Positions 6,701-53,601 of a stretch of DNA of 64,000 nt are shown here, piece by piece. The translations under genes and the position numbers were made by a program. Within the stretch, counting starts at the first letter, position 1. The number at the start of each line of letters is the position of its first letter. The notes under the pieces are model-generated. The model searched no databases, was not told the DNA's origin, and saw only the letters and a program-made list of their open reading frames with translations. This DNA is from Argopecten irradians (lineage: Eukaryota > Mollusca > Bivalvia > Pectinida > Pectinidae), in assembly GCF_041381155.1 (NCBI RefSeq), contig NC_091138.1:32419604-32483603 (forward strand). The letters are read 5' to 3'.

Positions 6701-9700
6701 GGGTAAATGTGGTAACTGTTACATGAATATGTTTTCATTTTAGCAAAAGGAGTATGTGAGTCAGGCCCTGGAATGTGGAGCAACTCACGCTGGAGGTACA
6801 GAGCTCCTAGCTCAGGTAATAATACAGATATTCTTTCTCTGGGTAATGTAAACTTGTAGTATACAGAGCTCTTCGCTCAGACAATTACAAGCTCTCTTGA
6901 TACAGATCTTCTTTGTTGGGTAATATAAGCTTGTACAGAGCTCCTTGCTCAGGTAATTACAAGCTCTCATGATACAGAACTTCTTCCTCTGGGTAATTTA
7001 AGATTGTACTATACAGAGTTCCTCACTCAGTAATTACAAGCTCTTGTGATACAGATCTTCTTCCTCTGGGTAATATAAGATTGTAGTATAAAGAGTTCCT
7101 CACTCAGTAATTACAAGCTCTCATGATACAGATCTTCTTCCTCTGGGTAATATAAGATTGTAGTATACAGAGTTCCTCACTCAGTAATTACAAGCTCTCA
7201 TGATACAGATCTTCTTTCTTGGGTAATATAAGTTTGTAGTATACAGAGTTCCTCACTCAGTAATTACAAGCTCTTATGATACAGATCTTCTTCCTCTGGG
7301 TAATATAAGATTGTAGTATACAGAGCTCCTCACTCAGTAATTACAAGCTCTCATGATACAGATCTTCTTCCTCTGGGTAATATAAGTTTGAACTATACAG
7401 AGTTCCTCACTCAGTAATTACAAGCTCTCATGATACAGATCTTCTTCCTCTGGGTAATATAAGATTGTAGTATACTGAGTTCCTCACTCAGTAATTACAA
7501 GCTCTCATGATACAGATCTTCTTTCTTGGGTAATATAAGTTTGTAGTATTCCGAACTTCTTGCTCAGGTAATTACAAGCTCTTGTTGTACATAGTTTCTC
7601 CTTTTGTTAATTACAAACTTCCATTCTAAGAGCTCATTGCCCAAAGAATTACAAGCTCTTGTTGTACATAGTTTCTCCTTTTGTTAATTACAAACTTCCA
7701 TTCTAAGAGCTCATTGCCCAAAGAATTACAAGCTCTTGTACATAATTCCCTTACATGCCCTCTATTCTATTGATCGTAACTGACATCTAATTATTCCTTA
7801 CAGATCCAGGCAGACCAAATATCTATATATGAGTTGGATCACGTCCTAGCAACACCAGATATGGCTAAACAGTTAAAAGCTTTGAGACCATTATTTGGGG
7901 AAATGTTTCCGAACGAGAAAAAAGGTAAAGATATTTTTCATTAAATCAGATAATTCCACATGATACAGAAAATTAAATTTTAACGCTTTCAATTAAAAAC
8001 CTTGTTGCAAACAAATTAAATTAGGGTTTTATGGTTGATTGGCATTCATTTTGAAAAAGTAAAATGCAAAAATGTATAAGCAAAGAAACTAATTCATAGA
8101 AAAACCCTCACACCAATACATTTTACTATAAACATGAAAATAGAGACACTCTTTTACTTTATGCTCTACAGAACCCCAAGTTTAAACATTTTGTTCACAA
8201 TGAAGAGAAATGAAAAGAAAAACAAAAATTAACTTCATGCTTAACAGAACATCACATTTTCTTACTATGTTTAATTACATGTGTACTTCCTAACCCTTAC
8301 AGGTAGTATGGGTGAAGATATTCCTGCTATGGTTGGAAGATTTCTCAATGGAGTTATGTTGAAAATAGAACACACTAAAACCAAAGGAGTAGCAAACATC
8401 AAATTTCCTATAGGAAAAGTAAGTTTTAGAAAATGATATACAGTACATGGAAACTGCATTAAAGTGAACAGTCGGGCAAGGATGGCTAAAGTCGGTAAAA
8501 ATGGTGTGAATGTATCCAGTATAATTTCTTATGAAAAAGAAACAGAATATCTCTCGTCAAAATCTGTCTGCGTACGAAGAAATTAATTTTAAGTATAGGA
8601 ATCCTAAAACGTCCTCCCGGCTGCCTATGTCGGTGGTTACATTTCCACGCAGCCTCGCTTTCAATGCTCCAACTTTTATTTATTTCAATGGTCAGAACTG
8701 GGAAATGTAAGCAGAACTTTACCGTCGTATTAATATGTGAGAACTTTTGGAAGGCCAATGAACGCATTTAGACTGGTTTTCTTTGCCCGACTATTCACTT
8801 TAAACCAAATCTCTTTTGCCAATGCTAAATTGCAAAGTTCTCACTTCAGAGCAAGTCTGAATGAATTTCCTTTCAATCATTAACTCATTCACCCCTGAAG
8901 TCACATTTGGACTCTTCTAAATTCATACGCTGGAAGAGTTCATTAAGAAATTTTCAGGGATGAATGAGTTACCAGTAATACATTTCAATAAAAATTCAAG
9001 GTAGGTAATAATTTGTTGAGATAAACTTTCAAACAAGAGCTGTTGGAGAACAGCAAAGCTCGCCTATTCAGAAGAAGTTGATGTTCAAGTATTTACTATT
9101 TAAACATGGAAATATGACAAATTAACAGACTTAAAAACCCCTAAAGGGCCCCAAATTGGTTGTATTATCACGTTCAGTATCCATACACATTAGGAAAATA
9201 AAATCATAAACATTTATGATGACTTAAGCTTAAACAATTGACGAAACAGAAACTTGCTCAAAAACTTTAACGTGAAATGGGATGCCAACGCCGGGGTGAC
9301 AGCATTAGCTCCCCCCTATTCTTCGGATAGGCGAGCTAAGAATTAGTTTACTGTGAAAGATTTAAAGACTAAACTATTACCATTGATACAAGCAGTACAA
9401 TACAATCAAGGCTTTATCATTTGTTACTATAGAAATCGATGAGGAATTATTTTAATGTTGCATGTTTTTATCTAATGACTGGTGTTCACATTGTTTTTTG
9501 TTTAGCTAAATATGACAAACCAAGAGTTATCGGCAAATTTGGATGCTTTGAAGATGGAAATATTTGGTGCTCGTCCATTAAAGGCAACAGGTATTAGTGA
9601 TGCTACAATAAATTGGTCAAAAACAGTTTAATCAATACTACAGTTCCTCGAGCTTGTAGGTTTGGATTCTGTTCATGATTGATCTTGTCCAAACTCTACC

Positions 9701-10605
9701 TCCTATATCATGAGGCATTAAATATTCATACGTAGTATATGGGGTCCCAAAACCAGGTCACTACAACCTACATTTTGACCTTTTACCTGCATTCAAATTG
9801 AAATAACAACTTATTCAAGCTCTTGCCTAATATTAGACAAGGCACTATTTTTTTTTGCTTCCAACATTTAGAATTGTCCTGTATTAATGGTATAAAGAAG
9901 TTATTGGGGAAATATTATGTGTATAATGATAATTTCGAAGTGGTCTGAAAATCATGCATAGGATTACTTTTAATTGCGCATTCAGATGAAGAACAGTCTT
10001 CTTGTTAAACCCTAGACTGGCCACCAGACCCTAAGTTTGGTTTTATTAGTTTAACGTCCTATGAACAGCCATGGTCATTTTAAGACATGTGCAGGTTTCT
10101 TGGTGGAGGAAAGCCGGTATACACACAGAAAAACCACCGACCAGCGGCCAGTACTGGGCAACTGCCCCCACATGGGATTCGAACTCACAACTCAAAGGTG
10201 GAGGGCTTGTGGTGATATGTCAGGACATATTAACCACCCATAAGTTGTTGATAAGACTTTCTCAGTAGAGTTCTTCACTAGATTATCTCCCCCTTGATTG
10301 AAACGTTTACAGGACAGACATGTATTAAGGGCAAAATTTATCCAGCTAAAGTTTAGTTAATTTTTTTTCAATATTCTAGAGACTGGTGGCCAGTCTAAAT
10401 TAGTTAAACACTTGTAATGTAACAGTATAAGAAATATACCATTTCAGTAACTGTATAACAATTTGGAATTATTGTTATTTTCATTTTTACAGGTAAATAT
10501 GTACTACATTTAGATATAGAAGTTCCACCATCACCTACAAAGTATAAACTGGATCCTGTTCAGTATGACTTGACAGAATCCGTTACCAAGAAGAAACGAC
10601 GCTGA
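744..10605 (+). CDS. MRPL1: Mitochondrial large-subunit ribosomal protein uL1m (MRPL1), 9 exons
   Basis: Exons: 744-774, 2608-2737, 4357-4585, 6311-6397, 6744-6815, 7804-7924, 8303-8418, 9506-9590 and 10493-10605. All phases agree and give 327 aa. The product is uL1 of the mitochondrial ribosome, which by family knowledge forms the L1 stalk at the tRNA exit site. The N-terminus (RLYTALTQAWRLESR then GGFYTQTRNASTKKEKAKK) is basic and poor in acidic residues, like a mitochondrial targeting peptide. Exon 5 encodes ATHAGGTELLAQ, matching the AGGTSLIQ motif of animal MRPL1. Exon 7 encodes GEDIPAMVGRFLNG, matching the family's GRDIPKMLELFKNG. The tail ends in KKKRR. Exon 1 was chosen because its ATG, 31-nt length and CAG|GTGCGA donor restore the frame of exon 2, so it is the least certain exon. 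Exon 5's donor is followed by a tandem array copied from it. Introns carry several MITEs. Confidence 0.93.
957..1369. mobile_element. Long-TIR inverted-repeat element in MRPL1 intron 1
   Basis: The two ends are near-perfect inverted copies over about 135 bp, from CAGGCTGGGCATATG at the left to the complement of CATGTGCCCAACCTG at the right. The arms include repeated TAGCTATA motifs and a shared AACAACATTTTTGAAGAT stretch. The centre has no ORF. This is a non-autonomous foldback or MITE-type DNA element. Confidence 0.8.
2216..2330 (+). repeat. tRNA-like SINE head in MRPL1 intron 1
   Basis: GGTGCAGTGGTTGAGCC resembles a tRNA A box, and GGGTGTGATCCCTGG, about 35 nt later, resembles a degenerate B box. 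No sound tRNA cloverleaf is visible and AT-rich sequence follows, so this is more likely a decayed tRNA-derived SINE than a tRNA gene. Confidence 0.4.
3149..4082 (-). mobile_element. TTAA-flanked non-autonomous DNA element, copy 1 (inverted)
   Basis: About 0.9 kb in MRPL1 intron 2 is a close inverted match to 18205-19262. Shared blocks include ACCGGAAGTGCCGTTCGTC, GAATTCCGGAATT-type sequence and GTCCTCG. The right end reads GGGCCTACC|TTAA and matches the terminus of the other copy. The left end also meets a TTAA but lacks roughly 100 bp of the other copy's terminal arm, so it appears truncated. No transposase ORF is present. TTAA flanks suggest, but do not prove, a piggyBac-type origin. Confidence 0.7.
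4602..4911. mobile_element. MITE with ACTGGCCAC-type ends and internal ~75-bp tandem repeat
   Basis: It begins AGACTGGCCACTAG and ends with the inverted counterpart CTAGAGACTGATGGCCAGT. The interior is built from three copies of a ~75-bp unit containing AAGTTGTTGATAAGA and AGGTTATCTCCCCCTAGACTGG. It starts 16 nt past the donor of MRPL1 exon 3. A second family member lies at 10009-10397. Confidence 0.65.
4924..5213. mobile_element. Short TIR element (AGC-CAAAAGAC family), copy 1
   Basis: This ~290-bp segment is homologous to 32474-32775: GTGTCGTCTTTAG, TATATCACTTA, CTTTTCAAAG-type blocks and a GTCTTTTGAG right end occur in the same order. CTCAAAAGAC and GTCTTTTGAG are inverted counterparts, so both are decayed copies of one MITE family. 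Confidence 0.55.
5237..5951 (+). repeat. 364-bp tandem direct duplication in MRPL1 intron 3
   Basis: The unit starting CATAACTAGTGCC at 5237 recurs at 5601 with very few differences, through the landmarks GGAGAAGGAGTTGAAG, CATGCATGAATAATGAC and GAATTATTCCATCCACAAC. The offset is 364 bp. The high identity points to a recent unequal exchange or replication slip. Confidence 0.85.
6795..7740 (+). repeat. Tandem array seeded from the MRPL1 exon 5 splice donor
   Basis: The end of exon 5 plus its donor (TACAGAGCTCCTAGCTCAG|GTAAT) recurs about ten times in the intron as a ~77-bp unit. Each unit has a TACAGAGTTCCTCACTCAG-like block, then TAATTACAAGCTCT, then CTTCTTCCTCTGGGTAATA. Some copies keep CAG|GTAATT, while most middle copies read CTCAGTAATTAC. 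The last ~160 bp are two diverged copies of a related unit. Confidence 0.85.
8459..8803. mobile_element. TTAA-flanked MITE in MRPL1 intron 7
   Basis: TTAA|AGTGAACAGTCGGGCA at the left mirrors TGCCCGACTATTCACT|TTAA at the right. About 345 bp with no coding capacity. The insertion starts 41 nt after the donor of exon 7 (end 8418). Confidence 0.8.
9032..9339 (+). mobile_element. Short Helitron/HINE-like element in MRPL1 intron 7
   Basis: It starts AACAAGAGCTGTTGG and ends in a hairpin (CCTATTCTTCGGATAGG) followed by CGAGCTAA. A subterminal inverted repeat pairs AGCTCGCCTAT near the left end with ATAGGCGAGCT at the right end. The same layout (AACAAGAG start, 3' hairpin, CTAA end) is seen at 20216-24835, 44528-45847 and 50230-51773, so these form a superfamily in this genome. 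Confidence 0.65.
10009..10397. mobile_element. ACTGGCCAC-type MITE interrupted by a SINE
   Basis: CCTAGACTGGCCACCAGAC at the left mirrors TAGAGACTGGTGGCCAGTC at the right. The interior matches the 4602-4911 copy but is split by a SINE at 10038-10240. Confidence 0.7.
10038..10240 (-). mobile_element. tRNA-derived SINE with 6-bp target duplication
   Basis: Read on the minus strand it has a tRNA-like head, with GAGTTCGAATCCC-type sequence as B box. A body containing CACTGCGGC-like, CCGGCTTTCC and GGACGTTAAACTAATAAAACC sequence follows. TAAGTT stands at both ends (10032-10037 and 10241-10246), a target-site duplication that re-joins the host MITE. Relatives are at 28830-28994, 47964-48185 and 57290-57432. 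Confidence 0.75.
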
Positions 10606-10660
10606 CTGTGGATTAATGAAAGTAACTTTGCTCTGTATTTGATGAATTGTAATGCTAGAA

Positions 10661-10666
10661 AATAAA
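10661..10666 (+). terminator. Poly(A) signal of MRPL1
   Basis: An AATAAA hexamer lies 56 nt after the MRPL1 stop codon and is followed by T-rich sequence, as expected for the 3' end of the transcript. Confidence 0.75.
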
Positions 10667-11114
10667 TTCTATTAAATTTTCTTTCCTGTTCTGGTTGAAT
10701 GTCACTTTAAGACTGATAACAGTCATCATGGTAAACTATACTTTTATTTGAACTTTGTTTCTATCGATGCTAAAACATCATAATGCACACTTGCACAACT
10801 TTTTGGTGACATTTGAAATCATTCAGCATCATAGAACATTTATAAGCATGAACATGCGATATGATGATTTATTACTGCAGTAGAGTACAATGTGAGACAA
10901 GATATCTGTCAAATGAAAGTATAGAGAAAGCTAAAAATTCTAAAAATTCAATATGGCTCTCTGACATTTTGCTTTCCATCAGTCTCAAAATATTCAACCC
11001 AACTAGTTTACATGTGAAATTTGAGAAAATTCCATTTGGTACATTTTGGGAAATCACGATAATAAACTTAATTGAGAAAATCAACAACGGATGTCTGTCA
11101 GCTGTTGTTTTCAG

Positions 11115-11333
11115 ATTGGTTCTGCACATGACCCAAAAGGAAAATTTGCTCAAATCATTGTACTTCCTAAGAAAAAGAATTATCAAGGATTGTATACAGA
11201 TGGACAGGCATTCGGCAGGCGATGTAGGAAAGTGGAATTGAAAAGCATACAATCTGTGGAAAGTAGAATATAATGTAATCAGGTGCTGCCTCTGTCCATG
11301 CACAATTTTTGTTGCTGCTTGTTCTAAAATAAA
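11115..11333 (+). CDS. Orphan terminal exon with poly(A) signal, product unknown
   Basis: A TTGTTTTCAG acceptor is followed by a 52-codon open frame (11115-11273) ending in TAA, with AATAAA at 11328-11333, 55 nt after the stop. The encoded tail contains IGSAHDPKGKFAQIIVLPKK, then a YQGLYTDGQAFGRRCRKVEL stretch: basic, rich in aromatic residues, and unlike repeat noise. It starts in phase 0. I do not recognise the family, nor find matching upstream exons. It lies 450 bp after MRPL1's own poly(A) signal on the same strand, so it could be an alternative MRPL1 last exon, the end of a gene nested over MRPL1, or a stranded pseudo-exon. Confidence 0.4.
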
Positions 11334-13336
11334 GTGTCAAGAGATCTTACCCAAATGTTATATGTTTGTTTCTTTTGTTTAGGGAGAATTACAGAATTCG
11401 CTGGAAAAAGTCAGATAAATATACAAAATCACACTTTTTGTCCCCAAAATTGTTTTAAAAAATAAAACCAGATGTTTGGGGTTATGAAACTCTGGTCACT
11501 GTAAATGTGTATTAAGGGGGTCATAAAATTGAAACGTGATGGAATGGTTAACTTTTAGCACTGACTTCTGTAGCTCCCCATTAACTGATGAGGAAAGTTT
11601 CTCAGTCATAAAAGTTCAACAGCTCAATAGACCAGATGAGCCAAACAAACAACAAAAATATCACAAAACAGTGTAATACTTTTTTATTTATATATCGAAA
11701 GTACAAATACTTTCACAATGGAACAGATTCACATATTCTCGATTTTGAAAAACTAATAAATGCAAAGCACTATTCAAACAGTACTGTATATTTGGTGATG
11801 TAAAAGACACTAAGACAAAGTGTGCAAACAGATTATATATTGTGAAGTAGAAAAATAGGAAAAACCTAAGGGGGAAAAGCACGAATAAAAGGTCAATGTG
11901 GTAGAGAATATAAGACAGCACTAAATCAGCAAGTTACACCTCACAATTCTGAGCATTCTTTCAATTACGACAGTGGAGATAATCTGACCAGCACAAGTGG
12001 AATGGAATGAAGTACGTGTCGATAGTATACTATTATGGAAATTGCAGTAAAATATACTGCAAATAAACCAACTTAATTTCACAGGGAATTGAATTTCGTG
12101 TATTATGCAGACAATGAGAATTTCTGAAATAATTTGTAGGGAAAATGTCTCAATTACCAGGTATAAGTGTTTGGCAAGAAAACATGAAATTAGCCACTGC
12201 AAAAATGTGTTGCTTTATTGTACTGTGAATTAATATTTTTAAGATAATGTGTTGTGACTTCTATTACAGTGTAAGAGTGATACTGGCCAGTTGCTGTTTT
12301 CTTCTTATAAATGCATGTTGTTGTTTTTTATAGTACCACAATCACTAAATGTATTACACAAAATTAGATTGAGAATTTTGATTTGAAGATTGAATTATAT
12401 TTTGATGAAGCACATTTACCCATCTTCACTCTGCTCTTACACAATTATTATGTAAACTGTGAAGGCTAACAAACTGTAAAAATAAATGCATTAGAACCGT
12501 TTTGAGAATGAACGATCCGGCAGTATCACAAGACTCAACTATTATATACATCTAAACAATTAATTTTCTCAATCCAAGTTACCCATATACTGTATAATGC
12601 TATTAAATATCAAGTTCAACATTTGTCTTCAATTAAATATATACAAGTGCAAACAAACCTGACTGACGACACAACATATTGCATAAAAAGAGTCTCTACA
12701 GATCTACAGATAAATATTCTCATACACTTGAAGTCTCTCTAATACTAAAATACAACTTTCAGCTGAAGCACGTGGTTTTTCTCGGGAGTAGAAAACCATG
12801 GGATTTCCTATATAGACAATTTAATACCTCTTTTTTACAAGTTAACAGATTTTAACTCAGCAGATAAGAACCATACCAGTAATGCTTTAGCTTATATCAA
12901 TATTTAGTAATTACCATATACAGCATGTAACTTTCATGGTAATGAAATTTTCGTCATTTGGACCTGTTTAAACAACAGCTATATGGTAATCTAATGTTGT
13001 ATCCTTTTTTTTTACATGAACCAAAGTTTGAACCAGACTGATATACAGGGAGCAATATTGAATCCAGCATCATCTAAAGATATAAAGACATCTGACTGAT
13101 ACTGAAATTAATTTTAAAATTCTAGATCCCATACTCAACTGCTTTGAGAATCTGAACAGAAATACATGTATGTAAAATATTGTAAATTAGTAAAACCCTA
13201 AATTTGATGATTTTTTCCCCAGAAGACTGTTGTCAAGACAAAACTTTACGATTGATATGATCCCAATTTCTGACTATGAAAAACTGCTCACTCTCAGCCC
13301 AAATATCACAGGATATGACACAGTCCCTGAGTAGAT
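11334..13336 (-). other. Convergent intergenic stretch and probable GDH 3' UTR
   Basis: No coding exon is seen here. The part next to 13337 should be the GDH 3' UTR on the minus strand. AATAAA-type signals on the minus strand occur as TTTATT at 12213-12218 and 11684-11689; I cannot tell which is used. Confidence 0.4.
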
Positions 13337-27576
<14,240 letters not shown>

Positions 27577-28560: not shown

Positions 28561-28567
28561 ATCAAGG

Positions 28568-30480: not shown

Positions 30481-30688
30481 GCTATATATAGGCCTATATA
30501 TATATATATTATTTTTATTTTTTTTTTTAATTTTTGAAATTAATAAAACCTAACATTAAATTTATGGGTATGAAACTTGCATTTGCCTTTTTTCAAGCAG
30601 TTAATTTATACTGTAAATCTTGTTGGGGGAGTACGCAGCATTGTGATCGGTGATGTAACTCAATATACATGTAGTATCATCAAGGGGA

Positions 30689-31228: not shown

Positions 31229-31241
31229 ATCATCAAGGGGA

Positions 31242-32059: not shown

Positions 32060-32473
32060 TAGTGCTGCTGCCCTTATGCTGCATACATGTATTATAATCA
32101 TTCCTCGTGTCCCACTGCTGTATACCGGTATTATAGACTAATTGTTCCTACTGCTCAAATACTACGTATTGGCATTATCCAGCTGTCCTAATACTGCATC
32201 ACTAATGCGGCTGTATACAGGCATTGCATACAGGAATTACAATCGTTACTGTTGTCCAAATACTGCATACAGATATTATAATTGTTTTTGTTGCCCTAAT
32301 GCTGCATACAGGAATTATAATAATTCCTACGGCTCAAACACTGTATCCAGGAATTGTAATCATTCCCGTTGCCCATATACTGCATACAGGTATTATAATC
32401 ATTCCTGTCACCCTAATACTGCATACAGGCGTTATAATCATTCGCGTTGTCCAAATACTGTTAGCTGCAATAT

Positions 32474-32775
32474 TGTAGCTCAAAAGACTTTTAGACGGAT
32501 AATAGTGTCGTCTTTAGAGCTATAATTGATGCCTCTTATCGCTAATAGAGCAAAGAAATGTTTGCGCAAACCATTATTTAAACGTCTGTTCGCATTTTAT
32601 CTTACTTGTCTTATATCACTTAACTATATACTAGGCAATAAAACTGAACCGTATAAAATATCAAATTCACAGGGAGACATGATTTTTTTTCACATATGAA
32701 TATGATGGTCTTTTCGAAAGAAAATTATACGACAGGTCTACAAATTATGAATTTGACGTCTTGTGAGAAGTAAAG
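32474..32775. mobile_element. Short TIR element (AGC-CAAAAGAC family), copy 2, in the minisatellite
   Basis: TAGCTCAAAAGAC at the left pairs with GACGTCTTGTGAG at the right. The internal blocks match 4924-5213 in order. It splits the left edge of the 39-bp array, so it arrived after that part of the array existed. Confidence 0.55.
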
Positions 32776-35700
32776 TAGATATTCAGAATGGCTGTTATGT
32801 TTCTTTTGGACAAAACTAATACATAAATGCATATATACGACTAAAATAATATTGGAAACCTACAACAAAGTTTAGAAAATTGTGCACGAGTGATTTTCTG
32901 AGGCACTGCTCTACTAGCACACATGGGTGGCATTTCGTATCCGGCCGAAAGGTATAGCAGGCCGGGTACGTAAATTAGTTATACAATGCTGTATACAGGC
33001 ATTATAATCATTTCCTACGGCCCAAATACTGCTTGCAGACATTATAATAGTTTCTACAGACCAAATTTTGCATACAGTCATTTCAATCGTTCATATGGCC
33101 TGTGCACAAATACTGCATAAAAGCATTATAATAATTCCTGTTGCCCTAATGCTGCATACAAGTATTATAATCATTCCTATGACCAAATACTCCATACAGG
33201 CATTATAATCATTCCTGTTACCCTAATGCTGCATAAAGGCATTATAACAATTCCCATTCCCATATACGTACTGCATACCGGTATTATAATCATCCATGTC
33301 ACCCTAATGCTGCATACAGGCATTATAATCATTCCCGTTGTCCCATTGCTGTATATAGGCATTATAATCATTCCTACGGCCAAAATACTGTATACAGGAA
33401 TTATAATCGTCACTGTTTCCCAAAACTGCATGCACTTACAGGTTTTATATTTGTTTCTGTTGTCCAAATACTGCATGCAGGCATTATACTAATTTCTGTT
33501 ACTCTAATGCTGCATACAGGCATTATAATCATTCCTACGGCCCACATACTGTAACAGGCATTGTAATCATAGACATTCCTGTTGCCCGAAGATATTATAA
33601 TCATTCCTACGGTCCAAATTCTGCATACAGGAATTATAATTGTTCCAGTTATCGAAATACTGCATACAGGAATTATGATTATTAAATACTGCTTACAGGC
33701 AATGTAATAATTCCTGTTACCCTAATGCTTCATGGTAGTATTATGATCATTCTGATAGCCCTAATACTGCATACAGAAATTATAATCGTTCCTGCTGTCC
33801 CAATGCTGTACGCAGGCAATTTACAATAATTCCTATTCCCATATACTGAGCGCCGGAATTATAATCATTCCTATGCACAAATACTGCATACAAGCATTAT
33901 AATCATTCCTGTTACCCTTGTGCTGCATACACGCATTATACTCATTCCCGTAGCCCTAATATTGCATGGAAGCATCATGCTCATCCCTGTTGCCCCAATG
34001 CTGTATACAGGCATTATACTCATTCCTGTTGCCCTAATGCTGTATACAGGCATTATACTCATTCCTGTTGCCCTAATGCTGCATACAAGCATTATAAGCA
34101 TTCCTGTTGCCCTAATGATGCATACATGATCATTCCTGTTGCCCTAATGATGCATACAAGCATTATAATCATTCATGTTGCCCTAATGATGCATACAAGC
34201 ATTATAATCATTCATGTTGCCCTAATGATGCATACAAGCATTATAATCATTCATGCTGCCCTACTGATGCATACGAGCATTATAATCATTCATGTTGCCC
34301 TAATGATGCATACAAGCATTATAATCATTCATGCTGCCCTACTGATGCATACAAGCATTATGCTCATTCCTGTTGCCCTAATGCTGCATACAAGCATTAC
34401 AATAATTCCTGTTGCCTCAAAGCTGCTTACAAGCATTACAATAATTCCTGTTGCCTCAAAGCTGCATACAAGCATTATGCTTATTCCTGTTGTCCTAATG
34501 ACGCATACAAGCACTATACTTATTCCTGTTGCCCTAATGCTGCATACAAGCATTATAATTATTCCTGTTGCCCTAATGCTGTATACAAGCATTATAATCA
34601 TTCCTGTTGCCCTAATGCTGTATACAAGCATTGTAATAATTCCTGTTGCCCCAATGCTGCATACAAGTATTATAATCATTCCTGTTGCCCTAATGCTGTA
34701 TACAGGCATTGTAATAATCTCTGTAACCCTAATGCTACTTAAGGCATTATAATCATTCATGTTGCCATAATGCTGCATACAAGCATTTTGCTCATTTCTA
34801 TTGCCCTAATGCTGCATACAAGCATTTTGCTCATTTCTGTTGCCCTAATGATGCATACAAGCATTATGCTCATTTCTGTTGCCCTAATGATGCATACAAG
34901 CATTATAATCATTCATGTTGCCCTACTGATGCATACAAGCATTATGCTCATTCCTGTTGCCCTAATGCTGCATACAAGTATTACAATAATTCCTGTTGCC
35001 TCAAAGCTGCATACAAGCATTATGCTCATTCTTGTTGGCCCGATGATGCATACAAGCATTATGCTCATTACTGTTGCCCTAAAGCTGCATCCAAGCATTT
35101 TGCTTATTTCTGTTGCCCTAATGCTGCATACAAGCATTATAATCATTCCTGTTGCCCTAATGCTGCATACAAGCATTATAATCATTCCTGTTGCCTCTAT
35201 GCTGTAAACAAGTTTTGTAATCATTCCTGTTGCCCTAATGCTGTATGTATGTTAAAGCATTACAATAAATACTGTTGCCCTAATGAGGCCTACAAGCATT
35301 ATGCTCATTCTTGTTGGCCCGATGATGCATACAAGCATTATGCTCATTACTGTTGCCCTAAAGCTGCATACAAGCATTATAATCATTCCTGTAACCCTAA
35401 TGCTACTTAAGGCATTATAATCATTCATGTTGCCCTAATGCTGCATACAAGCATTTTGCTCATTTCTGTTGCCCTAATGCTGCATACAAGCATTATAATC
35501 ATTCCTGTTGCCCTAATGCTGCATACAAGCATTACAATAATTCCTGTTGCCCTAATGCTGCATACAAGCATTATGCTCATTCTGTTGCCCGATGATGCAT
35601 ACAAGCATTATGCTCATTCCTGTTGCCCTAATGCTGCATACAAGCATTATAATCATTCTGTTGCCCTAATGCTGCATACAAGCATTATAATCATTCCTGT

Positions 35701-38700
35701 TGCCCCTAATGCTGCATACAAGCATTATAATCATTCCTGTTGCCCTAATGCTGCATACAAGCATTTGTAATCATTCCTGTTGCCCTAATGCTGTATACAA
35801 GCATTTAATAATTTCTGTTGCCCTAATGCTGCATACAAGCATTATAATCATTCCTGTTGCCCTAATGCTGCATACAAGCATTATGCTCATTCCTGTTGCC
35901 CTATGATTGCATACAAGCATTATCATTTCTGTTGCCCTAATGATGCATACAAGCATATAATCATTCATGTTGCCCTAATGCTTGCATACAAGCATTATGC
36001 TCATTCCTGTTGCCCTAATGCTGCATACAAGCATTATAATCATTCCTGTTGCCCTAATGATGCATACAAGCATTATAATCATTCATGTTGCCCTAATGAT
36101 GCATACAAGCATTATAATCATTCATGTTGCCCTAATGATGCATACAAGCATTATGCTCATTCTTGTTGGCCCGATGATGCATACAAGCATTATGCTCATT
36201 TCTGTTGCCCTAATGATGCATACAAGCATTACAATAATTCCTGTTGCCCTAATGATGCATACAAGCATTATGCTCATTCCTGTTGCCCTAATGCTGCATA
36301 CAAGCATTACAATCATTACTGTTGCCCTAAAGCTGCATCCAAGCATTTTGCTTATTTCTGTTGCCCTAATGCTGCATACAAGCATTATAATCATTCATGT
36401 TGCCCTAATGATGCATACGAGCATTATAATCATTCATGTTGCCCTAATGATGCATACAAGCATTATAATCATTCATGCTGCCCTACTGCTGCATACAAGC
36501 ATTATAATCATTCCTGTTGCCCTAATGCTGCATACAAGCATTACAATAATTCCTGTTGCCCTAATGAGGCCTACAAGCATTATGCTCATTCTTGTTGGCC
36601 CGATGATGCATACAAGCATTATGCTCATTACTGTTGCCCTAATGCTGCATACAAGCATTATAATAATTCCTGTTGCCCTAATGCTGCATACAAGTATTAC
36701 AATAATTCCTGTTGCCTCAAAGCTGCATACAAGCATTATGCTCATTCTTGTTGGCCCGATGATGCATACAAGCATTATGCTCATTACTGTTGCCCTAAAG
36801 CTGCATCCAAGCATTATGCTCATTTCTGTTGCCCTAATGCTGCATACAAGCATTATAATCATTCCTGTTGCCCTAATGATGCATACAAGCATTATGCTCA
36901 TTCCTGTTGCCCTAATGCTGCATACAAGCATTATAATCATTCCTGTTGCCCTAATGCTGCATACAAGCATTATAATCATTCCTGTTGCCCTAATGCTGTA
37001 TACAAGCATTACAATCATTCCTGTTGCCCTAATGCTGCATACAAGCATTATGCTCATTCTTGTTGGCCCGATGATGCATACAAGCATTATGCTCATTACT
37101 GTTGCCCTAAAGCTGCATCCAAGCATTTTGCTTATTTCTGTTGCCCTAATGCTGCATACAAGCATTATAATCATTCCTGTTGCCCTAATGCTGCATACAA
37201 GCATTATAATAATTCCTGTTGCCTCAATGCTGCATACAAGCATTATAATCATTCCTGTTGCCCTAATGCTGTATACAGGCATTGTAATCATTTCTGTTGC
37301 CCTAATGCTGCATACAAGCATTATACTCATTCCTGTTGCCCTAATGCTGCATACAAGCATTATGCATTCCTGTTGCCCTAATGCTGCATACAAGCATTAT
37401 AATCATTCATGTTGCCCTAATGATGCATACGAGCATTATAATCATTCATGTTGCCCTAATGATGCATACAAGCATTATAATCATTCATGTTGCCCTACTG
37501 ATGCATACAAGCATTATGCTCATTTCTGTTGCCCTAATGCTGCATATAAGCATTACAATAATTCCTGTTGTCCTAATGAGGCATACAAGCATTATGCTCA
37601 TTCCTGTTGCCCTAATGCTGCATACAAGCATTATAATCATTCCTGTTGCCCTAATGCTGCATACAAGTATTATAATAATTCCTGTTGCCCAAATGCTGCA
37701 TACAAGATTATTACATTCCTGTTGCCCTAATGCGTGCATACAAGCATTATGCTCATTACTGTTGCCCTAAAGCTGCATCCAAGCATTTTGCTTATTTCTG
37801 TTGCCCTAATGCTGCAAACAAGCATTATAATCATTCCTGTTGCCCTAATGCTGCATACAAGCATTATAATCATTCCTGTTGCCTCTATGCTGTAAACAAG
37901 TTTTGTAAATTCCGGTTGCCCTAATGCTGTATACAGGCATTGTAATCATTTCTGTTGCCCTAATGCTGTATACAAGCATTACAATAATTCCTGTTGCCCT
38001 AATGAGGCCTACAAGCATTATGCTCATTCTTGTTGGCCCGATGATGCATACAAGCATTATGCTCATTACTGTTGCCCTAATGCTGCATACAAGCATTATA
38101 ATCATTCCTGTTGCCCTAATGCTGCATACAAGCATTATAATCATTCCTGTTGCCTCTATGCTGTAAACAAGTTTTGTAATCATTCCTGTTGCCCTAATGC
38201 TGTATACAAGCATTACAATAATTCCTGTTGCCTCAAAGCTGCATACAAGCATTATGCTCATTCTTGTTGGCCCGATGATGCATACAAGCATTATGCTCAT
38301 TACTGTTGCCCTAAAGCTGCATCCAAGCATTTTGCTTATTTCTGTTGCCCTAATGCTGCATACAAGCATTATAATCATTCCTGTTGCCCTAATGCTGCAT
38401 ACAAGCATTATAATCATTCCTGTTGCCCTAATGCTGCATACAAGCATTATAATCATTCCTGTTGCCCTAATGCTGCATACAAGCATTACAATAATTCCTG
38501 TTGCCCTAATGCTGCATACAAGCATTATACTCATTCCTGTTGCCCTAATGCTGCATACAAGCATTATAATCATTCCTGTTGCCCTAATGCTGCATACAAG
38601 TATTGTAATAATTCCTGTTGCCCCAAAGCTACTTAAGGCATTATAATCATTCATGTTGCCCTAATGCTGCATACAAGCATTTTGCTCATTTCTGTTGCCC

Positions 38701-39020
38701 TAATGCTGCACACAAGCATTATGATAATTCTTGTTGCCCTAATGCTGCATACAAGCATTACAATAATTCCTGTTTCCCTAATGACGCATACAAGCACTAT
38801 ACTCCAGGGTTCCGTTGTCTAATCTGCATACAAGCATTATAATCATTCCTGTTGCCCAATGCTGCATACAAGTATTATAATCATTCCTTTGTTGTCGTAA
38901 TGCTGTATACAGGCATTGTAATAATTCCTGTTTGCCCCAATGCTGCATACACTGTATTATCAAATCAATCTTGTTGCCCTAATGCTGTGTACAGGCATTG
39001 TAATATTCCGTTGTCCCAAT

Positions 39021-39099
39021 GCTGCCTTCAATTTCACTATGAGATAGTCCAGGGGTGTAGAGATCGTAAGTGATCGTAACTCCTGGAGTATCGAGGATG
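39021..39099. mobile_element. MITE end fragment inside the minisatellite
   Basis: This segment matches the right terminal ~75 bp of the MITE at 29894-30209 (GCTGCCTTCAATTTCA, GAGATAGTCCAGGGGTGTAG, GAGTATCGAGGATG), with 39-bp units on both sides. Confidence 0.8.
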
Positions 39100-39330
39100 C
39101 AATGCTGCATACAAGCATTGTAATCATTTTTGTTACTCTAATGCTGCATACAGACATTATAATCATTCTTTCACTAAAATACTGCATATAAGCATTATAA
39201 TCATTCCTACAGCCCAAATACTGCATACAAGCATTATAATCATTCCTACAGCCCAAATACTGCATTACAATCGTTTCCAATGCCCTAAAAGAGCATACAG
39301 ACATTTGAGTCATACCTGATGTCTACATAC

Positions 39331-46644: not shown

Positions 46645-47270
46645 ATTTTTATTCTTCTATCAAGACAATTTTCATGCAAATTTCCTCATTCTCTTGAAAA
46701 TCTGTAGTAAACAAAAATATCGAAAAAAATAAGTTGACAAAATTATACATGCAGATAATGTGTAACTGATCTACCTTTTTCCCCACTAATTTTTTTTCCT
46801 TATTCCAAAGACGTATATTCTCACTTATAAATCCTTGGTTATTCTCATGGTTGGTAATTTATGAAAATTAAAACACAAATAAAATTAAAACAAAAATGTT
46901 GTTACACTAATTTTTTATATCACTCTTAAACAGTCTTTGCTTTTATAATAGACATTTTAAGTGGACATGATGACACGTAAAGTGTGAAGGATAAAGGGGT
47001 TAAACCAGAAACATATATTAGATGTGGCTAAACGGGTGGAATCATGCAATGTTACAAGTCCCTGTGTACAGCAATGCCAGTATTGACAGGTGACTGGATA
47101 TGATAGACAGTAGGATTCTGTTGACTATTTATGAAGGGGAGCGAATAATCATCTTAAGCAGAGCAACATGTATCGCATGTAATATACTCACGCCGAATAA
47201 AACTTCTCTTGTGGAATAATGACAGCAAAATTTACATTATTTTATCGGTGGCGAAGGAGCAGTCTCTCAA

Positions 47271-47278
47271 CCGGAAGT
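47271..47278 (-). promoter_or_regulatory. ETS-type site (ACTTCCGG) at the probable CHMP6 start
   Basis: CCGGAAGT on the plus strand (ACTTCCGG in the direction of CHMP6) is the core ETS/GABP motif, common at TATA-less promoters of housekeeping genes. It sits about 80 nt upstream of a good GTGAGT donor at 47191-47186. Confidence 0.4.
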
Positions 47279-47833
47279 AGGAAACATGTTCATCTAAAAA
47301 TATGCCCCAATATTTTAACCCATGGGAAATTAACCCGGAAAATGATATATTCATCGAGGGTCATAACAAATTTATAGACAGAGAACTTGAAATATACAAC
47401 ATAGATATAATTCAGTATTCATCGGCATAAAATGTTTGCCATTCTTAAAATGGTCTTTAAAATGTGAGAACACAAACTCCATACCCCATTTTAATAGCCC
47501 GCAAGAAGCGACGTCGATGGATCCCGCAGCCCGGGCACCTGTGCAATGGATAGGCCTAGTTATACTGAGGATCCAATAATGTAATTTTGGCGATTATCGA
47601 CGAATGGCCGACATCTGACTGTACACTTATTTTATATCGCCCATTTGCATACAGTACCGGTAATATCCTGTTAAACAAACCATGGTAGAATACCGCTTTC
47701 AGAGACATCCAAGTCCCTGTGATTAATGTATGTATCTATATCTTTGTTGGTTCTCGGCGGTATATATTACTTATATTACCAAATGTCTTTGACTTATTAG
47801 AATAACATAAATAGGGCATTAACACTACATGTA

Positions 47834-48376
47834 ATCCTCAATATTCCAGAGGTTACTATCAGAAATATTCTATCCACCTCTATATTATGTCAAAGCAAAA
47901 ATGAAGACAGTTCATGACAAAAATAACTGACCAATCACAGACCTACAGAGACTTCCTTTGATACAGTTTGATTTGGTTTTATCAGTTGAATGTCCTATTA
48001 ACAGCCAGGGTCATGTAAGGACGTGCCAGGTTTGATGGTGGAAGAAAGAGTACCCGGAGAAAAAACGCTGACCAGTGGTCAGTATCAGGCAACTGTCCCA
48101 CATGGAATTTGAATCGGCATCACAGAGGTGGAGGGCTTGTGGTTATATGTCAGGACATCTTAACCACTCGGCCACCGCGGCCCCTATTTGATAAAAGAGA
48201 GTGACATCCAACCTCAAAGCCACATAGTGTACCATTATTCAATTCTTGTAAAGTACATCAAAGGACCAAATTACTTGCTCATCTGTTGTCGCTTATACAC
48301 AGCCTTCAGTTTTTTTATGACATAACCAAGAGGTGGATATTATGACATTTGTTGTAGCCCATGGAATATCAAGGAT
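47834..48376. mobile_element. Diverged CATCCTCGATATTCC-family MITE interrupted by a SINE
   Basis: The left end ATCCTCAATATTCCAGAGGT and right end CATGGAATATCAAGGATGG are inverted counterparts resembling the TIRs at 29894-30209. Internal motifs (AAGCCACATAGTGTACC, AAAGTACATCAAA) match that family in reverse. Confidence 0.6.
47964..48185 (-). mobile_element. Full-length tRNA-derived SINE with TTTGATA target duplication
   Basis: TTTGATA occurs at 47957-47963 and 48186-48192. Read on the minus strand it starts GGGGCCGCGGTGGCCGAGTG GTTAAG, clearly derived from a Leu/Ser-type tRNA (A box), then GATTCAAATTCC as a B box. The tail ends at ATAAAACCAAAT. This is the best-preserved copy of the family. 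Confidence 0.85.
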
Positions 48377-48742
48377 GGCAAAGTGTATTCTCATTATACA
48401 CGTAGATAATTTTTAAATACAATATACATTTATTAACTTATCAGTTTAATCATTTTGGCTCTGAAAATTAAAAAGTTTAAATGTGGTAGATTGCAACAAA
48501 TGTGAGCTGATATTAACTATACACACAATATAATATTTCACAAGAGATACCCTTAGCCTTATTTCATGCTTTGTCACCAGTACATCATTGTAATTGGTAT
48601 TTAACTTTGCTAGATCAGAATGGCAGTATGTTTGAGCTTTGAATCAAATCTAGTTCATCCATGTAATTGACCAGATGCATTTTCTATAAGAGTTTTTTTA
48701 TGTCTGTTGTAGATTTGAAAGGATTTGTTCAAAAAAGTGACA

Positions 48743-51700
48743 ATGGAAGTTCCTGTTCTGACAAGCCTGTTGGTAATTTGTTTACTGATATTTCATGTAT
48801 GTGATTGTGTGGACTTACCCAGGGTGGAAAGAACTTTGATAAAAAATGGTTTTCATAGGTGAGTACAAGTTTTTCATAAAAATTACTTTTTTTTTGTCTC
48901 AGGCCACTGGTATTTAGTTTCATCACCAATATGCTGATACATATCATTATTATTTCATGTTATAAAAAAGGAACAACTTCCACTACATCACAGATACAGG
49001 GAAAATCATTAAATTAACAGGATAGTGTTATACAAGGGGGAGATAATTCTTATGTAACCTTAATTGTTGATCATTTATAGTTGCTGTTCTGAAGTTATTC
49101 ATGGTAGATCTCATAAATGATGGCTATTGATTGGGGGGGGGGGGGGTTATCCTAGAAATTAATTATATCTGTCGATTGGACGTAAATAGGGAAAATATTC
49201 CTTAAAACTTTTATTTGAAGCTATACAGGGGAGATAATCCTAAACAACATTTGTAGCTGGTGCTTGGAAATTATATAAGGGATCTAGCTTTTGATTAGAA
49301 GTTATACATGACTGATTTAATTACTACATTACCGCCTGCATCACTATCTGTAACTAAGCTTTGTCTCAGTAACTAAAGGTAGTGTTCTGTGATTATTATT
49401 GGAGATAATCCTGAAAACCTTTGGAGACCATTTGCAAATTTACTTTAAAGCTGTTGATAAGATGTTAAGAAAAAGGACTAGTTTATCATAGGAAAATAAA
49501 TCCTTTTTGACTTATTGATATAGAAATACATTTCTTATTACTAAATGTTTTTCATTTTTCATCAACAGAGAATTAACAACAAAAATAACATTTGGAAGAT
49601 CTCTCTTCAAAAATGTGTCAAACTGTGATGTGATGTTGCTAGAGTTACTTCCCCCTGGTGCCTATATTGATCCCTTTCAGATGAGATCACTTCGGGAGTT
49701 TGGTGGTCCTAAGGTATGTTTTTATCGAATAAATATTTTTCTGCTTAATATGGCCCAATTACATAAGAAAATTGATTGCTGTTTTTTTTTTTCTTCTTCT
49801 CTCGATGATTTTCATTTGTTTCCTTAATCTGCTAAACTTCAATACCTGCCTATGTTATTAGGCTTTTTTAATTTTTTTTTGTTTTGTTTATATAAGGCCA
49901 AAATTTTTTTTTTAAAGCATTACGATATACCGTAGGCATGTTTAGCGGACTATTGTTTCTTTAGTTAATTATTATTTTTTGCCTACTGTGATGAATAATT
50001 CAAATAATCATCTGATACATCTGTCCATAAACAAATATATTACATGTACTATTATTTCTCAGAATATGTTGAAGGTATCTTCTAGATTCCCGTTGGTTCC
50101 TTAGTTATTCACAGTCTATCTCGGCACCAACCTGAAAGCAAATTGGGAGTAACGAGAGAGTGAAAGGAAACCCAAATTTCAAATTTGTTCAACAGGTCAA
50201 TTAATCATGTCACTTATATGAATGAATTTTTAGGTCATCTGACCCGTAGTCATCGTGATTCATCCGACGTCGCCCGCCGCCCGTCTTGCGTAAACTTTTT
50301 CCTTTAAAACGCTACTCCTCCTTAACCGCTAAGCGGATTTCATCCGTATTTGATGTGAAACATCATTGGGGAAGGACAATCATATTTTTTATAAATGAGC
50401 CTGATCAGACCCCTAGGGGCTGAGGGGTGGGGCCCAAAAGGGCAAATTTTCTTAGTTTTAGCTTTAAAAACCTACTCCTCCTTCATCCTTGAATGGATTT
50501 CATCCATATTTGGTGTGAAACATCATTGGGGACAGACAATCATATTTTATATAAATAAGCTAGGTCCGACCCCTAGGGGCTGAGGGGTGGGGCCCCAAAA
50601 GGGCAAATTTTCTTAATTTTAGCTATAAAACCCTACTCCTCCTTCATCCTTGAATGGATTTCATCCATATTTGGTGTAAAACATTATTGGGGAAAGACAA
50701 TTATATTTTATATAAATCAGCGTGGTCAGACCCATAGGGGCTGAGGGGTGGGGCCCCAAAAGGGCAAATTTTCTTAATTTTAGCTATAAAACCCTACTCC
50801 TCCTTCATCCTTGAATGGATTTCATCCATATTTGGTGTAAAACATTATTGGGGAAAGACAATTATATTTTATATAAATCAGCGTGGTCAGACCCATAGGG
50901 GCTGAGGGGTGGGACCCCAAAAGGGCAAATTCTCTTAATTTTAGCTTTAAAATCCTACTCCTACTTCATCCTTAAATGAATTTTATCCATATTTGGTGTA
51001 AAACATTATTGGGGAAAGACAATTATATTTTATATAAATCAGCGTGGTCAGACCCATAGGGGCTGAGGGGTGGGGCCCCAAAAGGGCAAATATTCTCAAT
51101 TTTAGCTGGCCCACTTCCTGTTTTCAGGTTTCGGTCTCCGATCTCAATGAAAATTGGTCTATAGTTTTATAGGGTTTTAATTGATGCCGAACAACATGCT
51201 AACATTTTCGTAAAGATTTTGGTATTCCAAGATGGCCGCTGGCCCACTTCCTGTTTTAAGGTTTCAGTCTCCGATCTTAATGAAAATTGGTCTATAGGGG
51301 TTTTAATTGATGCCAAACAACATGCAAACATTTTCGTAAAGATTTTGGTATTCCAAGATGGTCGCTGGCCCATTTCCTGTTTTCAGTCTTCGATCTCAAT
51401 GAAAATCGGTCTATAGGGGTTTTAATTGATTCAGAAGGGGGAATTTTAGGTAAGGACAATCATATTTTATAAAGGACCGAGGTAAGACCCATGGGGATAG
51501 TAGGACGGAGGTCCAAAATGGGAGCTTTGCTGAAATTTGGCTTTAAAATCTGGCTCCTATTTTTTTAATCCTTGAATGGGTTTCGACCATATATGGATGA
51601 AGGGCTACCAAGTTTGTTCAACAAATGACATTTACATATTTCAGAAACTTGCATATTCAACTTAGGAGTTCCTTGTATTGTTTATATTAATCGTTAACCA

Positions 51701-53601
51701 ATACTTTATACTGTGACTTTGTTGTTTTGTGCCATGAGTCAGATGACCATTAAGGCCCATGGGCCTCTTGTTTTCATCTTTAGGCAGTTCAGAAAAATGA
51801 TGTTTGACCTTATTAGTAACGTTAAAGTATGGTTATGACCACTAAAATCGAACATGATCTGCATGATATAGGCCCATCGAGCCTTTCAATTTATTACCTC
51901 ACTGACCCTTTTAATATATTACCTTACATATCTAAAATGTTGTATAAAATGTAAATGGATGTTATTTTGTAGTTCCTCAGTGACCCTGTGGATGTAGAAC
52001 AGCCAGAATACCTCGCTCCATCTTTGAATGTTTCCCTGTACACATCTGACCTGAGTGATGCCACCGACAGTATGACGACTAGTGTTACTATACCCGTACA
52101 TCTTCGCTATCACAGACCATCGTCCGCATCAGACTACACATCCGTCATCATCCCAAACCCACTGCTACTTTTATCATGTACAGCAAAAGGTTATCTTCTC
52201 TTTGATGTCTTATTTCAGCGAAATTTCAATTTCTCTGTGAGATTAATTCATGGGGATGATATTTTCAATATTTTGTGGGTTAGTGCAATGATGAACGAGA
52301 TTACACTTGGCCAAACTCTATTTTTACTCTTCTACTTCAAGAATAGAACTTCCAATCACTTGATTTGTAGCTGTTTTGCTTCAGGGGGCTCTTCTGTTTT
52401 TAAGCTGGAAGATCTTCTGTGAAGACTTCCCTGCTGCAAAGAACACAATTGAAGTTTGCCTCTGTAGATTTATCATTAATTAATGCTTCTTTTTACACCA
52501 GATTACACTGGAGATGTTATTGGTAAAGAAGACCTGCCTTGTACATGTGCTACCCTCATCAAATGTAGATGGATGGTCATTAAATATTTATCAGTAAGTC
52601 ATCTTAATGTAGGTTGTCTGAAATCAGTTAGTCATCTTAATGTAGATTGTCTGAAATCAGTAAGTCATCTTAATGTAGATTGTCTGAAATCAGTAAGTCA
52701 TCTTAATGTAGATTGTCTGAAATCAGTAAGTCATCTTAATGTAGATTGTCTGAAATCAGTAAGTCATCTTAATGTAGATTGTCTGAAATCAGTTAGTCAT
52801 TTTAATGTAGATTGTCTGAAATCAGTAAGTCATTTTAATGTAGATTGTCTGAAATCAGTAAGTCATTTTAATGTGCATTGTGTAAATTAAGTAAGTCATT
52901 TAAAAGTACATTCTCTTAATTCATTAAGTCATTTTAATGTATATTCTCTGAATTCATTAAGTCATAACAATGTAAATTACATAGTTAATATGTATTTAAT
53001 CTGTAAATCATTTTAATGTACATATACCAGTACATTACCAGTATATGTTGTACTCAGTATCTTTATCCTGTAAGTTATCTTTCTGTTCAATACTGGTATT
53101 GGTCTGAGTAATGCAACATATTTTATTGGAAGATGGTCTAGTTGTGAGATAAGAAGTTGAGTATTATCAGTAAGCTATCTTTGTATAAACCTTTACTCTA
53201 AAATATTATGTTGTGAGAAGATATTCCGTGTTTGCATATTACAGGGTTACCTTCGTTACGGGGATGTATCCATTGTTAAATTCATGTCATTTCAAAGAAA
53301 ATTATTAATTTCTCTTGCAAACACACCACATCACAATCAATACCTACCCACATGAGCAGATAAATCTGTAATATGCATATATGGAATATGGAAGTGAAGC
53401 CATTTCTGGTCTATTTTGTTACTTTTACCTTATATATTTGTCTGTTTGCAGGATGTTGATGCCATAGAAGTACGAGTGCCAGTTGGTCAGACAAGTCATA
53501 CATTTCTAGTACTGGTAGGGACGATACTCATGACAGTCGCCGGATCCTTCCTCATCTTATTAAAAGTATTTAATCATAAAAATAAACAGAAAGCCAGCTG
53601 A
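48743..53601 (+). CDS. PIGX: PIG-X, GPI mannosyltransferase I regulatory subunit, 5 exons
   Basis: Exons: 48743-48858, 49569-49713, 51973-52189, 52502-52593 and 53452-53601. Phases agree and give 239 aa. By family knowledge PIG-X stabilises PIG-M, which adds the first mannose to the GPI anchor on the ER lumenal side. A signal peptide (VPVLTSLLVICLLIFHVCDC) opens the protein. LLPPGAYIDPFQMRSLREFG matches the human AGLYVDPYELASLRE block. Exon 3 encodes HLRYHRPSSASDYTSVIIPN, matching the human CRYHRPHSEDGEASIVVNNP hallmark. The last exon gives EVRVPVGQTSHT, a transmembrane helix (FLVLVGTILMTVAGSFLILL) and a short basic tail. This is a type I ER membrane protein. Intron 2 carries a reversed Helitron-like element. 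Exon 4's donor starts a 33-bp tandem array. Confidence 0.95.
50230..51773 (-). mobile_element. Helitron/HINE-like element in PIGX intron 2, reverse orientation
   Basis: On the minus strand it begins AACAAGAGGCCCATGGGCCT and ends GGGTCAGATGACCTAA. Subterminal GGTCATCTGAC and GTCAGATGACC pair. The core holds about five ~160-bp monomers (CTCCTTCATCCTTGAATGG, GGGGCTGAGGGGTGGGGCCC) and a shorter repeat with AATTGGTCTATAG and AAGATGGCCGCTGGCCCA. No ORF of note. Confidence 0.8.
52589..52935 (+). repeat. 33-bp tandem array seeded from the PIGX exon 4 donor
   Basis: The exon 4 junction (TTATCA|GTAAGTCATC) is the first copy of a 33-bp unit, ATCAGTAAGTCATCTTAATG TAGATTGTCTGAA, repeated about nine times and fading out by 52.94 kb. 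Nearly every copy retains CAGTAAGT, a strong donor consensus. The unit length keeps one frame open. Confidence 0.9.

Follow-up and report, generated by a model that had tools for sequence, protein, structure and literature searches.

Tandem arrays spanning splice junctions in Argopecten irradians and the background of local copies in introns

Genes and junction arrays in the window

The window is a stretch of 64,000 nucleotides (64 kb) from Argopecten irradians, in which genes were modelled manually, with GT/AG ends and reading frames that join. The five spliced products obtained by joining the frames of normal exons are all open. Four of them match the Pfam families Ribosomal_L1, ELFV dehydrogenase, Snf7 and PIG-X, and the fifth corresponds to a thioredoxin-like plus GST_C protein; the names MRPL1, CHMP6 and AIMP2 are our reading of such matches and designate putative genes. 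The exons and arrays considered below are the following (positions within the window).

6744–6815, forward strand: MRPL1 exon; its last 20 nt and the donor at 6815 (CAG/GTAATA) are array unit 1; supported by frame, GT/AG ends and alignment
6796–7545, forward strand: MRPL1 donor array; 10 units, unit 1 of 63 bp, the rest of 74–76 bp plus spacer
16498–16635, reverse strand: GDH exon 6, acceptor at 16635; supported by GT/AG ends, frame and open product
16620–16897, reverse strand: GDH exon 6 acceptor array; about 6.5 units of 43–45 bp
17700–18066, reverse strand: GDH exon 4 donor array; 6 contiguous units of 61–63 bp, unit 1 being the last 36–45 exon nt plus the donor
18031–18119, reverse strand: GDH exon 4, donor at 18031; supported by GT/AG ends, frame and open product
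52502–52593, forward strand: PIGX exon 4, donor TCA/GTAAGT at 52593; supported by GT/AG ends, frame and open product
52590–52985, forward strand: PIGX donor array; 12 units of 33 bp (11 codons)

As the initial annotation had proposed, each of these four junctions (MRPL1, GDH exon 4, GDH exon 6, PIGX) belongs to a head-to-tail array that occupies the neighbouring intron, forming its unit on the exon side, and the unit lengths of 77, 61–63, about 43–45 and 33 bp agree with those it had given. The exon share, put there at 5–40 nt, amounts to about 20 nt for MRPL1, 45 for GDH exon 4, 15–21 for GDH exon 6 and 4 for PIGX: the arrays do span the junctions, but PIGX shares only 4 exon nt with its array and the overlap there is therefore minimal. 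The description of the junction copy as the first unit also needs correction at the GDH exon 6 acceptor, where the exon copy is the last one. Alignment scores are 42 for PIGX, 38 for the GDH exon 6 acceptor, 33 for the GDH exon 4 donor and 30 for MRPL1, against a maximum of 17 in the reverse-strand control on the same introns (64 window junctions; 15.5 for 123 others, see below). The junction copies are not chance alignments, and the exon-edge position is no more frequent than other points in these introns.

The arrays differ in their internal organization. In MRPL1, unit 1 carries the functional donor and units 4–10 are near-identical, with mean identities of 0.90–0.92 versus 0.70 (unit 1), 0.85 and 0.86 on the exon side; the aligned GT is lost in most inner units. 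TRF extends this array to 7582, and a further 77-bp pair reaches 7739. Close to the exon, the units of the GDH exon 4 array have degenerated to 60–70% identity; units 4 and 5 are 98% identical and the others 60–75%; TRF reports only 17730–17884, about 147 bp from the exon, the contiguous units bridging the gap, and a lone further unit lies at 17236–17296. Most GDH exon 6 units retain a TATTTCAG/GGTTTA-like acceptor together with 15–21 exon nt, the AG being lost in one, and divergence is found at the far end (0.56; exon-side unit 0.84). The PIGX array likewise diverges at its far end (0.63; exon-side unit 0.88). The exact sequence TCAGTAAGT occurs in 7 of its 12 units, the working one included and always in one reading phase, and an open frame (52483–52890) spans the first nine units.

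Unit lengths vary among the four loci. A search of the 846-Mb genome, in which very common words were skipped, recovered each array at a single place in the assembly, its own locus. The view that they are local duplications and not one mobile family is thus borne out for the four window arrays, whose units this search did not find dispersed.

Frequency of copies at junctions and within introns

Each junction was scored by the best local alignment of an 80-bp window around it with the next 1 kb of intron. The window set comprises 64 junctions, uncertain models (a gene near 28.5–29.4 kb, first exons and last-exon ends) being omitted. Outside the window, 68 of 285 family matches had enough flank to be used; their 136 possible exon ends gave 123 junctions above a splice-score cut of 3, from about 24 gene clusters of this one genome (71 myosin, 25 kinesin, 19 CCT and 8 aldehyde dehydrogenase). 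The sample loci partly overlap (251,663 bases counted, 241,550 unique), and all 123 junctions are distinct. The total is 187 junctions, which is not a genome-wide count.

Units made of an exon part, the splice site and intron were found at the four window junctions (PIGX with just 4 exon nt) and at 12 of the 123 junctions elsewhere, where a number of the matches are weak or consist of one copy; with PIGX counted, the total is 16/187. Weak ones among the twelve are the donor (score 21) and acceptor (19.5) of locus L053 and a junction of L047 (20); the L053 acceptor match falls short of the exon once the windows are widened. The reverse-strand control at junctions gave 0/187, and so did exon interiors.

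Random intron points carry local copies as well. In the sample, the 12/123 junctions compare with 302/2653 intron points, a junction-to-intron ratio of 0.85 (95% interval 0.45–1.46), and at the stricter score of 25 the counts are 9/123 and 259/2653. In the window, 3/64 junctions (4/64 with at least 4 exon nt) compare with 239/1408 intron points, a ratio of 0.28 (0–0.56); the pooled ratio is 0.60 (0.34–0.95). Reverse-strand copies also occur at intron points (58/2653 in the sample, 56/1408 in the window), and part of the intron rate is therefore not head-to-tail duplication. TRF arrays make up 14.2% of the 252 kb of sample loci. The check suggested with the initial annotation, array overlap at junctions versus shifted intervals, was run on the 187 junctions and gave no more than expected, the result that had been named there as refuting the idea: 9/123 sample junctions lie within 10 bp of a TRF array versus 18.8 in shifted controls, and in the window the count is 3/64 versus 15.3, a control value that drops to 5.5 when two giant arrays are left out. 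Not every one of these nine sample junctions belongs to the twelve with copies, as some arrays flank the junction and contain no exon bases.

Fate and reading frame of the copied splice sites

Among 53 copies, most of which come from few arrays and are not independent, the splice dinucleotide is intact in 44, versus 45.2 expected from the identity elsewhere in the unit. Copied dinucleotides are thus neither preferentially kept nor purged; selection for or against them left no sign in this comparison, and the suggested function as decoy sites or exon-definition elements finds no support.

Near the exon, three homogeneous arrays, those of PIGX and of the myosin loci L052 and L031, stay in frame and free of stops. 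The PIGX units are open and in phase. In L052 the 12 units measure 54 bp and their donors score equally; each of the 11 copies in the intron is in frame and open. L031 has at least 25 copies of a 60-bp acceptor unit, and the 11 closest to the exon keep the frame and contain no stop. If arrays are mere passengers of local duplication, such in-frame open arrays are predicted by chance only. The CCT-family locus L048 has an equally scored, in-frame and stop-free acceptor 57 nt upstream. An intact copy was found for 13 junctions; the nearest such copy keeps the frame at 6 of them and lacks stops as well at 4, one third being expected in frame by chance; no excess attributable to a frame filter is claimed from the 6/13.

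Discussion

The initial annotation knew of no named class for such arrays. They belong to a known kind, the "mirages" of amphioxus, and their frequency is the notable part. As described in amphioxus, mirages in the Adh3, globin (BflGb6 and BflGb9), TnC and PGBD5 genes are minisatellite-like tandem duplications across an exon-intron boundary, 5' or 3', with units of 10–72 bp (Adh3) or 150–160 bp (globins) and AG/GT kept in many, not all, copies (PMC3087553, PMC3902484). As described there, copy number differs between haplotypes, RT-PCR shows regular splicing and the interior is homogenised (PMC3087553). The scallop arrays share the boundary-spanning tandem units with the mirages so described. 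As to homogenisation, exon-side units that differ from a uniform interior are clear in MRPL1; in PIGX and GDH exon 6 the divergent units are those farthest from the exon, and GDH exon 4 has one 98% pair. Unlike in those accounts, a rate was measured in the scallop (12/123 sampled junctions), and it is not above the intron background; splicing and haplotype variation belong to the amphioxus evidence, whereas the scallop arrays are known from the sequence of one assembly. In a limited literature search, none of the titles and abstract openings listed dealt with mirages, or minisatellites across splice sites, in scallops or other molluscs.

A minisatellite reportedly yields multiple splice donors in human IFI6 (6-16), as Turri is said to have described in 1995, and the IFI6 repeat unit is 12 bp. 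Similarly, the unit of the scallop donor arrays carries the donor at the exon end, and the PIGX and L052 arrays add whole codons. In one account, downstream IFI6 units serve as donors (PMC4526556), a role for which the intact, in-phase PIGX copies would be candidates. Rogers is said to have proposed in 1989 that introns are gained via tandem genomic duplication of AGGT. A review has an exonic segment doubled into a new intron (PMC3443670); the scallop duplications also copy splice-like sites, but the copies sit in existing introns. Human internal tandem repeats, as described, are likewise minisatellites at exon-intron boundaries; these alter splicing and, in segmental duplicates of recent origin, can give rise to introns, as transcripts support (PMC2812944), features that set them apart from arrays read in genomic DNA as here.

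We consider it very probable that the arrays are mirages, minisatellites that span an exon-intron boundary by chance, with nothing targeting exon edges. What is observed is the structure of the arrays, how often they occur among 187 junctions, that junctions are not enriched in them and that the copied sites bear no sign of selection, and the arrays look like a by-product of repeat-rich introns. Where short repeat arrays cross the exon/intron border, as is often the case in this genome, the splice site is copied several times. A high rate of local head-to-tail duplication across the introns of this genome would at times double a segment that takes in a splice junction together with some tens of exon nucleotides. 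The copy next to the exon, whether the first donor or the last acceptor, would stay functional, and the others would go unused and turn into intron, while the interior may expand and homogenise via slippage or unequal exchange. Splice-site copies would then decay at the same pace as the remainder of the unit, and selection would presumably eliminate duplications that fall within an exon or shift the functional site.

A frame filter, by which arrays with many intact splice sites survive chiefly if their unit is made of whole codons and stop-free, is conceivable but improbable; the reason would be that the decoy sites see some use and that no extension other than an in-frame one is tolerated. 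The post hoc subset with at least 4 intact copies leans toward it (PIGX, L052 and L031, versus GDH exon 6). That the copied sites are in fact used as alternative donors or acceptors, each extending the exon by a whole number of units in the manner of IFI6, is rather less likely still. The open, in-phase arrays of PIGX, L052 and L031 and the upstream L048 acceptor speak for it; against it, the nearest intact copy is in frame at 6/13 junctions, with one third expected by chance, splicing at the intact copy in MRPL1 or at those of GDH exon 6 would lead to a frame shift or to stops, and the L031 copies score 2.7–3.8 versus 5.6 for the working acceptor. In the amphioxus account, such copies leave regular splicing undisturbed (PMC3087553).

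The four junctions in one window, and 16/187 overall including PIGX, could suggest duplication anchored at exon edges, for example triggered at the junction, as first proposed. This is very unlikely, as random intron points carry copies as often or more often, and arrays at junctions are rarer than in shifted controls. It is hardly credible that the arrays are remnants of whole-exon tandem duplication: the sample does include myosin genes, which are known for mutually exclusive exons, but the copies hold only part of an exon (mostly 4–45 nt, 77 nt in L023), and several arrays have 6 to 25 units around a single boundary. An empty state in paralogous introns was sought at the neighbouring myosin loci L024 and L027, where nothing aligned at E values of 1e-3 or below. 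Equally remote is an assembly artefact, or a mobile or dispersed repeat inserting at junctions: dispersed repeats abound in the genome, tandem arrays are prone to assembly error and a 30-bp stretch (17690–17719), located where the GDH exon 4 array ends away from the exon, is found at three other places, but that stretch lies outside the TRF array and overlaps just the unlike tail of the sixth unit, every array is otherwise at its own locus only in the search without very common words, and old diverged copies and joined frames argue against an artefact, exact copy numbers being uncertain. Within the scope of that search, a mobile family is rejected.

Taken as mirages, the arrays suggest that this class requires no special exon-edge mechanism, a high local duplication rate being enough. 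If the frame filter were true, PIGX and the myosins L052 and L031 would be living sources of coding length variation. If something like 7–10% of splice junctions adjoin duplicated sites, this genome would offer a natural test of how the spliceosome chooses among near-identical sites; it would likewise put to the test the idea that introns or extended exons can originate from mirages.

Tandem arrays at splice junctions

Five genes of the 64-kb window were modelled by hand, with GT/AG ends and reading frames as guides, and the spliced products of all five are open along their whole length. Four products match the Pfam families Ribosomal_L1, ELFV dehydrogenase, Snf7 and PIG-X, and we name the first three genes MRPL1, GDH and CHMP6 after these matches; the fifth, which matches a thioredoxin-like plus GST_C protein in Pfam, is here called AIMP2-like. 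Together the five models define 64 junctions (31 donors and 33 acceptors). TRF calls arrays at 6822–7582, 16620–16897, 17730–17884 and 52590–52965; taken out in register, beyond these calls, the units are arranged as follows:

MRPL1 donor, from 6796: 10 units, unit 1 holding the exon end (about 20 nt) and the donor.
GDH exon 4 donor, coding strand from 18066 to 17700: six contiguous units of 61–63 bp, the first holding the exon end (about 45 nt) and the donor.
GDH exon 6 acceptor: about six units of 43–45 bp with 15–21 nt of exon, the working acceptor being the last unit.
PIGX donor: twelve 33-bp units starting four bases before the donor (4 nt of exon), seven of them containing exact TCAGTAAGT.

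Local alignment scores at the four junctions are 30–42 vs. a reverse-strand maximum of 17, which together with the in-register units confirms the observation of the initial annotation that splice junctions form units of tandem arrays running into the adjoining introns. Each array was also searched against the whole genome (846 Mb, 1508 contigs; the search skips very common words) and was returned at its own locus only, save one 30-bp stretch (window positions 17690–17719) that occurs at three further genomic places. This stretch falls outside the TRF call, and all that it shares with the array is the dissimilar tail of the sixth GDH exon 4 unit. With that exception the units are not dispersed, in agreement with the proposal that they are not one mobile family.

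Other repeats are present in the window. GDH intron 2 consists mostly of one repeat-like block (20232–24839, starting with caagaggcccagagggcc and ending with ggccaggtgagctaataa), which contains a 157-bp array of 28 copies and a GACG run, and stops a few bases short of 24843, the donor edge of GDH exon 2. Beside CHMP6, at 33685–39025, some 137 copies of a 39-bp unit form a large satellite. The open frame 59414–60370 on the reverse strand (318 aa), for which no Pfam match was found, is mostly made of 12-residue repeats resembling EKQEKAKQSDLV, encoded by 36-bp units.

Comparison of junctions with other positions

Comparison junctions were obtained by searching the genome for exons of the myosin, kinesin, CCT/Cpn60 and aldehyde dehydrogenase families; 68 of the 285 matches define 123 distinct junctions (71 myosin, 25 kinesin, 19 CCT and 8 aldehyde dehydrogenase) spread over about 24 gene clusters. 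For each junction an 80-bp segment, half exon and half intron, was aligned with the 1 kb of adjoining intron that follows, and a copy was counted if it reached 6 nt or more past the junction in both directions with a score of at least 18; the control applied the same one-sided test at points 150–990 bp inside the same introns. Copies were found at 12/123 sample and 3/64 window junctions (4/64 at 4 nt or more, a threshold that admits PIGX), vs. 302/2653 and 239/1408 intron points, respectively. At a score of 25 the sample gives 9/123 junctions vs. 259/2653 points. Reverse-strand copies amount to 0/187 at junctions, and exon interiors likewise give 0/187; at intron points they number 58/2653 (sample) and 56/1408 (window), so that head-to-tail duplication accounts for only part of the intron rate. 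Resampling by locus puts the junction rate at 0.85 times the intron rate (0.45–1.46) for the sample, 0.28 times (0–0.56) for the window and 0.60 times (0.34–0.95) when pooled. A second test compared TRF arrays with circular shifts, a junction being scored if an array lay within 10 bp: 9/123 sample junctions were hit vs. 18.8 expected, and 3/64 window junctions vs. 15.3, or 5.5 without two giant arrays.

The rate at junctions exceeds that at other places in neither test, and may be lower. The arrays are not anchored at exon edges as had been claimed: across these 187 junctions, a partial sample of the genome, comparison with intron points and with shifted intervals reveals no excess of arrays overlapping junctions, the outcome that the initial annotation had itself named as refuting its claim.

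Two sample cases at myosin junctions have many copies:

Locus L052 (C16:3233618), donor: 12 units of 54 bp including the working one, each joining the last 39–42 nt of the exon to 15 intronic nt that carry the donor GTGAGT; all 11 intronic copies in frame and open.
Locus L031 (C5:36366015), upstream of the acceptor: a 60-bp unit present 25 times or more, in which 41 nt from the intron end, AG included, are followed by 19 nt of exon; the nearest eleven in frame and open, farther ones not.

The remaining cases have one or few copies each, several with decayed sites. The weak ones (donor and acceptor of locus L053, and locus L047) score just 19.5–21, and the L053 acceptor match stops short of the exon once the aligned windows are widened. 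Two near-alike stretches with CCT-like matches (L056 and L057) share one small contig, C451; one match has stop codons.

Fate of the copied splice sites

The splice dinucleotide is intact in 44 of the 53 copies covering it, which are not independent, vs. 45.2 predicted by identity elsewhere in the copies; these 53 copies thus give no sign of upkeep or removal of the dinucleotide. At the 13 junctions having an intact copy, use of the nearest one found would preserve the frame in 6 and be stop-free in 4. Among arrays that have many intact sites, the most homogeneous ones, PIGX, L052 and L031, are in frame and open beside the exon; that of GDH exon 6 has intact sites too, yet is not in frame and open. 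We regard the in-frame, open state of homogeneous arrays as a lead, not a result.

Origin and relation to known arrays

Head-to-tail duplication on a local scale is common in these introns: TRF arrays with a period of at least 10 make up 14.2% of the sample loci (252 kb). Most likely, a duplication that by chance takes in a junction is tolerated as long as the exon-side copy stays in use, after which the array grows and its interior homogenises, the molecular step being presumably slippage or unequal exchange. Mean identity to the other units is 0.90–0.92 for MRPL1 units 4–10 and 0.70 for unit 1; in the GDH exon 4 array an inner pair of units reaches 98% identity, the rest 60–75%. In the PIGX and GDH exon 6 arrays divergence is at the far end, not at the exon side.

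Arrays spanning exon–intron boundaries have been named mirages in amphioxus (PMC3087553), with further cases described in PGBD5, TnC and Adh (PMC3902484), and repeat donors are described as used in splicing of human IFI6 (PMC4526556). The window arrays, for which the initial annotation knew of no named class, have the structure that defines mirages and, the likeness being one of sequence structure, appear to belong to this known class under its amphioxus name, not to a new one. The primary paper on the Adh case, Canestro 2002, is cited here by way of the mirage articles above. What deserves to be retained is the frequency of junction copies, between 9 (score 25) and 12 (score 18) of the 123 junctions in the sample, together with the question of the reading frame.
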